Positions 42,704 to 46,416 of a DNA stretch of 47,898 nt are shown here, in pieces. The position numbers were made by a program, and so were the translations under genes. Source of the stretch: an uncultured Pelagibacteraceae bacterium (GTDB taxonomy: Bacteria > Pseudomonadota > Alphaproteobacteria > Pelagibacterales > Pelagibacteraceae). How positions within the stretch are numbered: position 1 is the stretch's first letter; every line of letters begins with the position of its first letter. The DNA lies in NCBI GenBank assembly GCA_902611175.1, contig CACLYQ010000006.1, forward strand, positions 1 to 47,898. Direction: 5' to 3'. The notes beneath the pieces were generated by a model. That model saw nothing but the letters and a program-made list of their open reading frames with translations. It made no database searches and had not been told where the DNA came from.

Positions 42704-43423
42704 ATGTCTATCTGGGGAAGTTTAATTGGTGGGATGATCGGTTTTTCTTTGGGAGGGCCGTTTGGAATGCTATTAGGTTCCTTAATTGGTGGAAAAGTAT
42801 CAAGATCAAGATCATCATTTAAATCTTTTGCACAACCTCAACAAGTTTTTGCATTAGCTCTTATAGTTTTATCAGCTAAACTGAGTAAAGCAGATGGTCA
42901 GGTTAGTAGAGAGGAGTTAATAGCGGTAAAAGATAAACTCAAAATTCCAGAACATGAATTAGATCAAGTTGGAAAAATTTTTAATAAAGCTAAAGAAGAA
43001 AGCACTGGTTACGAACCATATGCTAAACAAATAGCTCAGATCTATCAAGGAAATATAAATGTGTTGGAAGAAGTCATTAATATATTATTTTATATTGCAG
43101 AAGCTGATGGAAATATAAGTGATCAAGAATTTAGAATGATACAACATGTTTCCCAATTATTTGGTCTTAGTGATGCCCAGTTCAATGGAATAGTTGAGGG
43201 TAGGAAATCATCAGATAAACTCAATCCATATGTGGTATTAGAGAGTAAACCCGATGACAATCTTACAGATATTAGAAAAAGATATTTAAAATTAAGTAAA
43301 GAACATCATCCAGATTTACTACTAAGTAAAGGAGTTCCTCGGGAAGTTATTGAGGAAAGTAAAAAGAAAATGAGAGCTATTAATTCAGCCTGGGATCAAA
43401 TTCAAAAGCTAAAGAGTAATTAA
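42704..43423 (+). CDS. TerB/J-domain protein, DjlA-like
   Basis: A 239-aa protein. The N-terminus is a Gly-rich hydrophobic zipper ([22 protein letters not shown], about 9-30). A TerB-like helical domain follows (about 46-155, with [14 protein letters not shown] and [16 protein letters not shown]). The C-terminus (about 170-235) is a J domain with the HPD tripeptide in KEHHPDLL. DjlA uses a real membrane helix and the same TerB-J order, so this is an analogue that works with DnaK. The N-terminal zipper may also insert in membrane. It overlaps aceA by four bases at the 3' end (TTAA). Confidence 0.88.
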
Positions 43424-44694
43424 AATTGCTCAGATTCTGTTGAGCCTTCCATTGCTGTTGTGGAGCTCTTTCCAGAGCTTATTGTATTGGAAACTGCATC
43501 AAAATAAGAAGTACCAACTTCTCGTTGGTGTTTAACACTGGTATATCCATCTTTTTCTCTAGCAAATTCATTTTGTTGTATTCTAGAGTAAGCAGTCATC
43601 CCTTCCTTTTTATATTTTTCTGCTAGCTCAAAAATAGCAATATTTTGCGTATGGAAACCTGCTAAAGTTATAAATTGAAATTTATACCCCATCATTCCAA
43701 TTTTAGTTTGAAATGTTGCAATCTCATCATCAGATAAATGTTTCTTCCAATTAAATGACGGAGAACAATTATAAGCTAACATCTTGCCAGGAAATTTTGC
43801 ATGTATTGCATCAGCAAACTTTTTTGCTTCTTCTAAATTAGGTGTTGCAGTTTCACACCATATTAAATCCGCGTAAGGTGCATAAGCTAACCCTCTTGAG
43901 ATTGCTTGATCAATACCATCTTTTACATAATAGAAGCCTTCAGGTGATCTTTCTCCTGTTAAAAACGGTTTGTCATTTTCATCAAAATCGTTTGTTATTA
44001 GTTTCGCAGCGTTGGCATCTGTTCTTGCAAGAATAATGAGAGGAACGTCGGCAATATCAGCTGCCAATCTTGCTGCTTTTAGATTTCGGACCATGGTTCC
44101 AGTAGGAACAAGTACCTTACCACCCATATGTCCACATTTTTTTTCACTAGCTAGTTGGTCTTCAAAATGAACTCCGGCTGCGCCAGCTTTTATAAATTTT
44201 TTCGTTAGCTCAAATACATTTAACGGCCCACCAAATCCTGCTTCGCCATCTGCAATAATTGGCAACATGTAATCAGTTCTTTCGCTGCTTTTCATATCTC
44301 CATCTGCTATTTCCATATGCTGAATTTGATCAGCTCTAATTAAAGAATTATTCATAGACTCAACTAATTTAGGTGCGCTGTCGTAAGGATATAAAGATTG
44401 ATCAGGATACATTTCACCAGCACTGTTTGCGTCTGCTGCAACTTGCCAACCACTTAAATAGATCGCTTTTAAACCTGCTTTTGCATGTTGAACGGCTTGA
44501 TTTCCCGACAAAGACCCAAGTGTGTTTACATATGGCTCTGTATTTAACAATCTCCAGAGCTTTTGAGATTGCTGTTTACACATTGAATACTCAATTTTAA
44601 TAGATCCTCTTAACCTTTCTACTTCTTCTGGCTTATAATCCCTTTGTATTCCTGCAAATCTTTTCAACTCGTACGAGATTTTCTCGGCTGACAT
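43420..44694 (-). CDS. aceA: Isocitrate lyase
   Basis: Splits isocitrate into succinate and glyoxylate, the entry to the glyoxylate bypass used for growth on C2 compounds and acetyl-CoA. The catalytic KKCGHMGGK is present (about residues 183-191), along with [14 protein letters not shown] and the final region [10 protein letters not shown]. The length of 424 aa is that of the bacterial form. A very strong ribosome site AAGGAGGAG (44705-44697) precedes the ATG. A RamB/ScfR-type regulator is divergent upstream, with operator-like boxes between, so control by acyl-CoA or acetate status is likely. Confidence 0.97.
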
Positions 44695-44696
44695 TA

Positions 44697-44705
44697 CTCC
44701 TCCTT
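44697..44705 (-). promoter_or_regulatory. Strong ribosome-binding site of aceA
   Basis: AAGGAGGAG on the minus strand lies three bases before the aceA ATG. It is the longest anti-16S match I saw in the window, where most genes have only AAGGA or nothing. It suggests high expression. Confidence 0.75.
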
Positions 44706-44720
44706 AAAAACTAATTCCTT

Positions 44721-44882
44721 TTACTTTTCGTTATATTCTTCTGTAAACTCATTCATTCCACTTGATCCCCAATCGCAGTGGTCATCTCTTAAATAAACCC
44801 CTCTGCTTCTATGCTCTTGGTGCTCTTGGTGATTTGTAGTTTGAGAACTAGTTTCAATGTTTTTTATAGTTTTTTTGTCCAT
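44721..44882 (-). CDS. 53-aa protein upstream of aceA, unknown
   Basis: An open frame on the aceA strand begins at ATG 44882 and ends 26 bases before aceA. The 53 residues are polar, with a His-Glu-Gln stretch (NHQEHQEHRS) and GVYLRDDHCDWGSSGMNEF near the end, which looks like real protein rather than random AT-rich translation. A GTG at 44918 would lengthen it by 12 residues and would reach into the first operator pair. I recognise no family. It is likely co-transcribed with aceA and fills what would otherwise be an almost 300-base gap. Confidence 0.5.
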   Translation of the reverse strand: MDKKTIKNIETSSQTTNHQEHQEHRSRGVYLRDDHCDWGSSGMNEFTEEYNEK

Positions 44883-44895
44883 GTAAACTTTATAA

Positions 44896-44912
44896 TTTAC
44901 AATATTTACAAA
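44896..44912. promoter_or_regulatory. Paired TTTACAAA-type boxes, aceA side
   Basis: TTTACAAT (44896-44903) and TTTACAAA (44905-44912) start nine bases apart. They lie directly before the small gene and aceA on the minus strand. The octamer resembles the TTTGCAAA-type sites of RamB/ScfR regulators, one of which is encoded next door. Confidence 0.65.
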
Positions 44913-44954
44913 ATCCACAAAAAATGTTAAAAGTCTAGTAAATACAATAAATTT

Positions 44955-44985
44955 TTTGTAAATAATAATTTACAAAGTTTACAAA
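44955..44985. promoter_or_regulatory. TTTGTAAA/TTTACAAA boxes, regulator side
   Basis: TTTGTAAA at 44955-44962 is followed by TTTACAAA at 44969-44976 and again at 44978-44985. The last two start nine bases apart, as on the aceA side. The last box ends six bases before the regulator ATG, so binding would block its own transcription or translation start; autoregulation is likely. Confidence 0.7.
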
Positions 44986-44991
44986 TAGTAA

Positions 44992-46416
44992 ATGAGTCAA
45001 GTAGAATTAAACATTGGTCCAAAAATAAAAGCTTTTAGAAGACAGTTAGGTATGCAGGCAAACAAACTAGCCTCGCAACTTAACATTTCACCAAGTTATT
45101 TAGCTTTAATCGAGGGAGGTAAAAGAAAAATTGATGGTGAATTACTTTTAAAAATTTGTGAGGAGTTAAGCATCAACATTAGCGATCTAACAAATAAATC
45201 AGATATCAATATGGTTAACACAATTTCAGAATTGCTCGATGATCAACTTTTTGAAGATTTGGATATAGTTGGTCCAGAAGTTAAAGATCTTGCAAATAGT
45301 AATCCAAAAATTGGTAAAGCTCTAATAAGATTAGGAGACATTTTGAAAAAAAAAGATCATGAATTGGTTAACAAAATTGAAAAGCTTTCAGGAAAAATTG
45401 TAGATAATAGAAAAAACTCATTTCCTGGAGAAGTAATTTCAGATTTTTTGCAAGAAAATAGAAATTTTTTTCCAAAACTAGAGGAATTTGCAAATCAAAT
45501 CTTTGAGCAAATAAAACAAAATAATAGAACAAGATATATTGCTTTATGTGATTATTTAAAATCAGAGTATAAAATTGAAGTACAAGATATAATTCCTGAG
45601 GAAGGAAAACCCTTTTCAAAAATTTATGATAAAAAAAATAAAAAGTTGCTATTGTCTGATTATTTGTCTTTGGAAACAAAGAAATTACATGCTGCAGCTC
45701 AAATTGCACAAGAGGGGGCTAGTGACATAATAAATTCTTATCTTGATACTTTTAATTATCCAAATGAAGAATCGAAAAAATTAACGATAGTTGCTTTATT
45801 AAATTATTGTGGTGCGGCAATTTTAATGCCCTACAAATTATTTCATTCTGAATGTAAAAAACTTAAATATGATTTAGAGTTATTGCAAAATACTTTTGCA
45901 ACTTCGTTCGAACAAGTCACACATAGAGTAACATGTTTGAATGATCCAAAATTACCTGGGGTTCCATTTCATTTTTTGAGAGTTGATGTAGCTGGTAATA
46001 TTTCAAAAAGATTTTCATTGTCAGGTATAGAAATACCACGTTATGGTGGTGCTTGTCCTCGATGGAATGTATATTCGGCTTTTTCTAGACCTGGTGTTAT
46101 ACAGGCTGCAGTAAGTAAAATGACTAATGGCGAAAAGTATGTATGTATAGCAAGAACTGTTGAAAAAGGTATAGGAAGATATGGACAAAAAAAAAGTATG
46201 TTATCTATTGGACTTGGATGTGAAGCCAAATATGCAAGAGATTTTATTTATACGGAAAACTTAGATTTGAATGATAAAAAATCAGAGATACCTGTAGGGG
46301 TTTCATGTAGAACTTGTGATAGACTAGATTGTTCTCAAAGAGCTTTTCCACCATTGCATAAAAAATTTGATGTAGACATTAATTCTAGAGGAGTATCTGT
46401 ATATGTCAGTGATTAA
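44992..46416 (+). CDS. RamB/ScfR-type transcriptional regulator
   Basis: A 474-aa regulator. An XRE helix-turn-helix (about 8-66, with GMQANKLASQLNISPSYLALIEGGKR) is followed by a long middle part with an IrrE-like stretch and a C-terminal DUF2083 domain ending in CRTCDRLDCSQRAFPPLHKK (around 443-462). This order is that of RamB and the short-chain fatty acyl-CoA regulators, which control isocitrate lyase or propionyl-CoA genes. The protease-like HExxH of IrrE is not visible. It is divergent from aceA, with octamer boxes in the 297-base space. It overlaps the TPR gene by 14 bases. Confidence 0.88.
   Translation: MSQVELNIGPKIKAFRRQLGMQANKLASQLNISPSYLALIEGGKRKIDGELLLKICEELSINISDLTNKSDINMVNTISELLDDQLFEDLDIVGPEVKDLANSNPKIGKALIRLGDILKKKDHELVNKIEKLSGKIVDNRKNSFPGEVISDFLQENRNFFPKLEEFANQIFEQIKQNNRTRYIALCDYLKSEYKIEVQDIIPEEGKPFSKIYDKKNKKLLLSDYLSLETKKLHAAAQIAQEGASDIINSYLDTFNYPNEESKKLTIVALLNYCGAAILMPYKLFHSECKKLKYDLELLQNTFATSFEQVTHRVTCLNDPKLPGVPFHFLRVDVAGNISKRFSLSGIEIPRYGGACPRWNVYSAFSRPGVIQAAVSKMTNGEKYVCIARTVEKGIGRYGQKKSMLSIGLGCEAKYARDFIYTENLDLNDKKSEIPVGVSCRTCDRLDCSQRAFPPLHKKFDVDINSRGVSVYVSD

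Follow-up and report, generated by a model that had tools for sequence, protein, structure and literature searches.

The window analysed here is a stretch of 47,898 nucleotides from an uncultured Pelagibacteraceae bacterium (contig CACLYQ010000006.1) of the SAR11 group, which is reported to be among the most abundant bacteria of the ocean. Our subject is the divergent spacer that separates the gene for a ScfR/RamB-type regulator from a microprotein gene and, behind it, the isocitrate lyase gene aceA. We take the array of short boxes in this spacer to be genuine and strongly conserved: an operator whose kind is known but whose variant features are new, its basic code being common to other alphaproteobacteria. 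With fair confidence, we read it as the operator of a class-2-like RamB that would control the divergent microprotein-aceA unit as well as its own gene, and probably little else at the stringency used. Carrying this reading are the array itself, its conservation, its restriction to one locus, the co-occurrence of regulator and aceA, and the 9-base-pair (bp) code upstream of ramB in other alphaproteobacteria. The new features are the rigid array, the duplicated helix-turn-helix (HTH) domain of the regulator in some lineages, and an altered coenzyme A (CoA) pocket; among the open-licence papers listed we found no description of this SAR11 operator.

The box array and its conservation in Pelagibacter

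The first-pass annotation of the window had proposed five octamers forming, in part, two tandem pairs with 9-base start-to-start spacing. All five are present (TTTACAAT at 44896; TTTACAAA at 44905, 44969 and 44978; TTTGTAAA at 44955) and the two pairs stand as described. The further proposal that one pair lies beside each gene holds for the right pair, which ends 6 bp before the regulator start codon, and fails for the left one, which adjoins the microprotein gene rather than aceA. Because this 53-amino-acid open reading frame (ORF) sits between the left box pair and aceA, the divergent spacer is 109 bp (44883-44991), an unusual length for the group (median spacer in Ca. P. ubique reported as 3 bp, PMC2704228), and its G+C content is 16%. 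A sixth box at 44935-44942, weak and degenerate (CTAGTAAA, core GTAAA), is identifiable only through relatives, where 43 of 52 representatives read CTTGTAAA on the plus strand; the spacer thus contains six TTTAC/GTAAA cores in total, with box-to-box spacings of 9, 30/31, 20, 14 and 9 bp. The features are as follows.

44890..44895, minus strand: TTATAA element abutting box A1, a candidate -10 element of the microprotein-aceA unit
44896..44903, plus strand: box A1, TTTACAAT
44905..44912, plus strand: box A2, TTTACAAA, 9 bp after A1
44935..44942, minus strand: box C1, CTAGTAAA on the plus strand, core GTAAA at 44938-44942; the array match begins at 44938
44955..44962, minus strand: box C2, TTTGTAAA on the plus strand, 20 bp after C1
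44969..44976, plus strand: box B1, TTTACAAA, 14 bp after C2
44978..44985, plus strand: box B2, TTTACAAA, 9 bp after B1, its start 14 bp ahead of the regulator start codon
44992..46416, plus strand: ScfR/RamB-type regulator, 474 amino acids, with HTH_3, IrrE-like (PF06114) and ScfRs C-terminal (PF09856) domains
44721..44882, minus strand: microprotein gene, an ORF of 53 amino acids with the core Y-x-RDDHCDWGSSG, between aceA and the left box pair
43420..44694, minus strand: aceA, isocitrate lyase, 424 amino acids (PF00463, 376 bits; NCBIfam NF011645, 728 bits, cut-off 562), downstream of the microprotein gene

Taken singly, the octamers show at most a slight enrichment across the window (TTTRYAAA, 39 observed and 31.2 expected, 9 of 100 shuffles equally high; TTTACAAA, 19 observed and 12.7 expected, 6 of 100 shuffles equally high), and it is therefore their clustering and spacing that form the significant feature. 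The window reaches a maximum of 4 exact boxes per 90 bp; among 300 dinucleotide shuffles of the whole window this maximum was 1 in 236, 2 in 62, 3 in 2, and never 4. When the 109-bp spacer was shuffled 20,000 times, four exact boxes appeared in none of the shuffles, three in 4, and an exact same-orientation tandem pair in 1. The core pair TTTAC-N4-TTTAC, on either strand, occurs twice in the 47.9-kb window, both times in this spacer. An Rfam scan of the window gave no match. The 5 hits of a promoter scan were weak, one of them placing its second hexamer within the coding region of the regulator, and were not used.

For comparison, 120 SAR11 loci were collected, in 114 of which the regulator has a small ORF next to it; 110 were analysed, L100, L116, L119 and L120 being excluded as broken or fragmentary. 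Representatives below 95% identity numbered 57, and 52 of these were assigned to Pelagibacter; set apart were four loci of other genera (L112-L115) and L117, from a genome (G313) labelled as the same genus, whose regulator is 59% identical and which has neither a microprotein match nor the array. Every one of the 52 Pelagibacter representatives carries the array pattern, and so do 105 of the 110 loci overall; it is missing from L112-L115 and L117. Its layout occurs in none of these five divergent family loci and in none of 40 loci from other alphaproteobacteria. The first-pass annotation had named loss of the boxes in relatives that keep the genes as the outcome that would count against it; what we observed is conservation throughout the representatives. 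Across the 52, the distances are C1-C2 20, C2-B1 14 and B1-B2 9 bp, with A2-C1 at 30 or 31 bp in 48; the pair A columns cover 48 loci since the small-ORF start was called too far upstream in L060, L086, L089 and L093, which cut pair A from the spacer used. GTAAA stands at C1 and C2 in all 52 at fixed offsets, positions unused for column anchoring, and mean entropy is 0.17 for 48 box columns as against 0.91 for 58 other columns, in a comparison where the A and B box columns were anchored on TTTAC. In the TTATAA element beside A1, five adjoining columns hold one base in 92-100% of 47-48 loci, and the sixth column in 85%.

The array is also confined to its locus. Of 300 Pelagibacter genomes, 183 have the four-core pattern GTAAA-15-GTAAA-6-TTTAC-4-TTTAC (38 of 44 among those at least 90% complete), with one match each and 0 control matches, and the array pattern was present in 80 of 80 named SAR11 loci (the 80 nearest among the matches listed, overlapping with the other genomes surveyed), pair A lying upstream in each. 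The genome-wide search for paired boxes that had been suggested at first pass ties the strict octamer pair to this place: its 71 matches are spread over 60 of 101 Pelagibacter genomes, and 70 of them are at the ramB-aceA locus, with one off-locus match (G028:C21) and one match to the reversed strict control (G009). With a single locus per genome at this stringency, control of the SAR11 glyoxylate shunt could be tested with a single protein and a 109-bp piece of DNA.

Regulator and aceA also travel together. A regulator match was found in 69 of the 101 genomes, two of them weak (G015, G050). Counting strong matches only, with these two and weak aceA-like matches left out, both genes are present in 66 genomes, the regulator alone in 1, aceA alone in 2 and neither in 32, giving concordance in 98 of 101; in two of the three discordant genomes, G017 and G002, the gene is at the edge of a contig. 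Where the flank of a SAR11 locus is long enough, the three genes stand in the order regulator, microprotein gene, aceA, the exceptions being L117 and L114, where there is no microprotein match. Some Pelagibacter genomes of 95% completeness or more, G128, G153 and G174 among them, gave no regulator match, so the switch is missing from part of the genus.

The expectation that boxes would also lie beside malate synthase or across a wider regulon was not borne out: the core pair is absent from all 7 malate synthase loci examined, the acyl-CoA genes not having been inspected singly. Four of the 7 have a glycine riboswitch (Rfam) and none of those 4 has a core pair, while no glycine riboswitch reached the Rfam gathering score in L241, L243 and L244, the last being the window's own genome. 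A glycine riboswitch on malate synthase has been reported for SAR11 (PMC5069720); it belongs to the same clade and governs the other glyoxylate-bypass enzyme, as an RNA switch rather than a protein operator. Since malate synthase lacks core pairs and partly has this riboswitch, the two bypass enzymes appear to be separately controlled. A search for a wider regulon in the window's own genome with a relaxed pattern (2 mismatches) was uninformative, with 151 matches and 135 for the reversed control. In relatives, TTTRYAAA pairs away from the locus are, among the matches listed, largely mixed forms with TTTATAAA or TTTGCAAA. One TTTGCAAA pair lies in G032:C14.

The regulator and the sign of control

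As the first-pass annotation had proposed, the neighbouring gene encodes a regulator of the ScfR/RamB type. It scores 37.5 bits for PF01381, 36 bits for PF06114 and 199 bits for PF09856, all above gathering scores, and so has the combination of HTH, IrrE-like and ScfRs C-terminal domains that marks the ScfR family. Its closest PDB relatives are structures of the mycobacterial PrpR, MtPrpR (6cz6, 6cyj and 6cyy, E about 1e-62). Corynebacterium glutamicum RamB, of class 1, is the name-giving regulator of acetate metabolism, and the SAR11 protein differs from it in falling far under the cut-off of the RamB equivalog NF038139. Gene context and the paired operator point to a class-2-like regulator: the gene adjoins and diverges from glyoxylate-cycle genes, and the paired boxes resemble those of Paracoccus, with a different pair-to-pair distance and orientation. 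Of the 40 nearest ramB loci fetched from other alphaproteobacteria, 35 have aceA in the flank.

The class 2 RamB of Paracoccus denitrificans is reported to activate the glyoxylate operon, where mutation of both boxes together abolished binding in vitro and both are needed (PMC10370305). By inspection, the operator oligonucleotide in that source has TGACA followed 9 bp on by TTACA, and TGACA followed 9 bp on by TGACT. The two systems thus share an ScfR protein, a gene divergent from glyoxylate-cycle genes and T[GT]AC cores 9 bp apart (PMC10370305), and the link to RamB/ScfR sites made at first pass stands. In Paracoccus, two pairs of like orientation, 32 bp apart, precede malate synthase and isocitrate lyase, which lie together, whereas in SAR11 six mixed-orientation cores precede the microprotein gene and aceA, and malate synthase is located elsewhere. 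The mycobacterial PrpR/RamB site, 17 bp with two octamers one base apart (TTTGCAAA-N-TTTGCgAA; PMC6765138), belongs to the same protein family and has the same 9-bp tandem spacing; its core is TTTGC rather than TTTAC.

By alignment to MtPrpR, cysteines equivalent to C363, C447, C450 and C455 are present in all 52 Pelagibacter sequences, in all 5 other family sequences and in all 40 from other alphaproteobacteria, so that the SAR11 regulator is predicted to keep the [4Fe4S] cluster ligands of the ScfR family. With these cysteines retained, the regulator is a concrete candidate for the response of isocitrate lyase to iron; the authors of the MtPrpR study proposed iron sensing for its cluster (PMC6765138). 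The acyl-CoA pocket of MtPrpR, marked by Phe240 and His319, is kept in part: the His319 equivalent is found in 52 of 52 Pelagibacter sequences, while the position of the adenine-stacking Phe240 is Leu in 52 of 52, as against Phe in 39 of 40 other alphaproteobacteria. At the Phe155 position all 52 Pelagibacter sequences have Gly, and 2 of 40 other alphaproteobacteria have Phe; as the position varies in the latter, Gly there is by itself no departure from them. In MtPrpR, replacement of Phe240 or Phe155 by Ala is reported to abolish the propionate response (PMC6765138).

We propose that each 9-bp tandem TTTAC pair would be one RamB binding unit, equivalent to one Paracoccus RamB box, and that pairs A and B together with the single inverted cores C1 and C2 may form one rigid complex across the spacer, as their fixed spacing suggests. 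Pair A, adjoining the conserved TTATAA, would govern the microprotein-aceA unit, and pair B, so close to the start codon, would autoregulate ramB. Cluster-loaded RamB would repress both units coordinately and release them when an iron or acyl-CoA signal changes. Coordinate repression is the sign that we prefer, only slightly ahead of activation and on a weak fit, because iron limitation is reported to raise aceA and a nearby regulator gene together: in Ca. P. ubique, the rise was 1.58-fold (P 0.091) for aceA (SAR11_1240) and 1.60-fold (P 0.054) for SAR11_1242, a 'Transcription regulator', both in the 'Late' iron-stress cluster (PMC2864753). In a Southern Ocean study (Beier 2015, as cited in PMC6618146), cell-specific SAR11 isocitrate lyase expression was higher at an iron-limited site. 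The iron transporter genes sfuABC are contiguous with aceA in Ca. P. ubique (SAR11_1236-1242, table in PMC2864753).

The strongest competitor uses the same operator with the opposite sign: RamB would activate the microprotein-aceA unit from pair A and repress only its own gene from pair B. Because the operator is shared, our judgements of the two readings overlap, and we regard this one as a serious, if tentative, possibility. In Paracoccus, RamB activates the glyoxylate operon and both boxes are needed, and pair A, directly upstream of the conserved TTATAA and in the place of a -35 element, suits an activator; against it, joint de-repression is the simpler account of aceA and the nearby regulator gene rising together when iron is limiting, although the P values are weak.

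For the reading of the spacer as a RamB operator with coordinate repression, several points count on the other side. RamB binding here is predicted from sequence, and the relatives share descent, so that counts of loci are not counts of independent events. The regulator scores 358.6 bits for NF038139, which describes class 1 RamB, and misses its cut-off of 700, and the exact core pair is absent from 21 of the 40 loci of other alphaproteobacteria. Because the Phe240 equivalent is Leu in all 52 sequences, SAR11 RamB may sense a different ligand or bind its ligand differently. Both P values for iron limitation exceed 0.05, SAR11_1242 is assigned as the orthologue of the regulator from its position, two tags from aceA, and the community share of isocitrate lyase transcripts was reported not to differ between the iron-limited and fertilised Southern Ocean sites. 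Finally, by analogy, the activating class 2 RamB of Paracoccus would suggest the sign opposite to the one that we prefer.

The TTTAC code in other alphaproteobacteria

The 40 ramB loci of other alphaproteobacteria provided a test of whether the pairing and the TTTAC form belong to SAR11, as had been suggested at first pass; spacing was analysed in 35 of them, 24 with aceA adjacent and 11 with it further along the flank. In these 35 regions TTTAC cores number 121 where shuffles give 21.4 (5.7-fold), and core spacing has its highest peak at 9 bp (16 where 0.03 are expected) and lower ones at 8, 17 and 40-42 bp. TTTGC, the reference form of the first-pass annotation, shows no enrichment over shuffles (32 where 39.8 are expected); its density near ramB is 3.6 per kb vs 2.1 in the rest of the loci, and that of TTTAC 13.8 vs 0.76. 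Across all 40 loci, the 10.5 kb that lie upstream of ramB contain 24 core pairs and the remaining 382 kb contain 2, and 19 loci, from 12 of 21 families, have an exact pair. Of the 24 upstream pairs, 21 read GTAAA-GTAAA. The TTTAC 9-bp code offers a simple motif for RamB sites in alphaproteobacteria.

A code specific to the SAR11 lineage is accordingly improbable. In its favour are the four-core layout, which is absent from the divergent family loci and the other alphaproteobacteria alike, and the orientation of the pair beside ramB, which reads TTTAC-TTTAC in 51 of 52 Pelagibacter representatives (TTGAC-TTTAC in the remaining one) as against GTAAA, as an exact tandem pair, in 3 of 4 loci of the other Pelagibacteraceae genera. 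Against it, the TTTAC core and the 9-bp spacing both recur near ramB in other alphaproteobacteria, the spacing is also that of the 17-bp MtPrpR site, and TTTGC is not enriched in the alphaproteobacterial regions. Lineage specificity is therefore contradicted for core and spacing and survives only for the layout of the array, which looks to be the feature special to Pelagibacter.

A little less probable still is that another regulator reads the boxes and RamB is merely their neighbour. RamB binding in SAR11 is a prediction from sequence, which leaves room for such a reader, but the pair tracks ramB across alphaproteobacteria and the equivalent Paracoccus site binds RamB in vitro. We give hardly any credence to the boxes being by-products of an A+T-rich promoter or spacer: the low G+C of the spacer and the slight enrichment of single octamers would suit this, but it is already contradicted by the absence of four boxes from all local shuffles, by 0 control matches in 300 genomes, and by cores that hardly vary, at a fixed spacing, amid variable neighbouring columns.

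One divergent locus, L117 (G313:C3), has a regulator with a changed recognition helix, ITPAYLSLIESNQR, and a spacer without TTTAC pairs and with repeated TTAAC; here the code and its reader have possibly changed together.

Duplicated HTH domain and microprotein gene

The window's regulator is of the single-HTH form. A second, N-terminal HTH in the same frame was found in 25 of the 110 loci (L044, L048, L050, L051, L055, L057-L061, L091-L099, L101, L102 and L106-L109), a count that is not a frequency because some genomes were chosen for showing it; in an unselected draw from the genus it was found in 10 of 65 loci. Double-HTH regulators have 562-566 amino acids (19 representatives), and Pfam identified two HTH_3 stretches in 3 of 3 tested. 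In a domain tree of only 75 columns, from which L107 was omitted, 18 extra HTH domains form one branch (100/98), so that a single duplication is likely; a tree of the protein body requires at least four changes between the single and double states, and the extra domain has therefore been lost or exchanged repeatedly. The exact C2 box TTTGTAAA is present in 18 of 19 double-HTH and 8 of 33 single-HTH representatives. A link between the two was set aside, as there are only 4 independent contrasts, too few for a test; on average, C2 changed the same way in 2.3, the opposite way in 0.2, and showed no difference in 1.6.

Relatives of the microprotein were found in 66 of the 101 Pelagibacter genomes, one match per genome. 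DDHCDWGSSG is present in 52 of 52 representatives, and the ends are variable. Over a 20-codon core, mean majority identity is 0.93, 0.97 and 0.71 at codon positions 1, 2 and 3, and the median ratio of nonsynonymous to synonymous substitution rates (dN/dS) is 0.08 (572 usable of 780 pairs; 40 of the 52 representatives), a value lower than for the whole microprotein because the core was picked for conservation. Neither Pfam nor NCBIfam gave a match to the microprotein up to E 1. In a contig collection, 522 of 531 stretches with its pattern encode a relative, and the best 80 of the 522 are all titled Pelagibacteraceae or Pelagibacterales. In a search of the open-licence literature aimed at the microprotein and the double HTH, none of the papers listed contained the two.

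A wider reading joins these parts and is, taken as a whole, unlikely. SAR11 RamB would be a one-target sensor of iron and acyl-CoA whose cluster-loaded form closes both promoters through the six-core array; low iron would open them and let isocitrate enter the glyoxylate route, with malate synthase separately answering glycine. The duplicated HTH of some lineages would supply two reading heads per subunit, matching the 9-bp cores, and the microprotein, with its RDDHCDWGSSG core, would act on isocitrate lyase or on the switch.

Looser forms of the microprotein occur in L112, L113 and L115, all from other genera. L113, L114 and L117 have a small ORF of a second type, marked by an NCVS..DD..C-like motif, beside aceA in the interval between it and the regulator gene (56, 78 and 36 amino acids, respectively).

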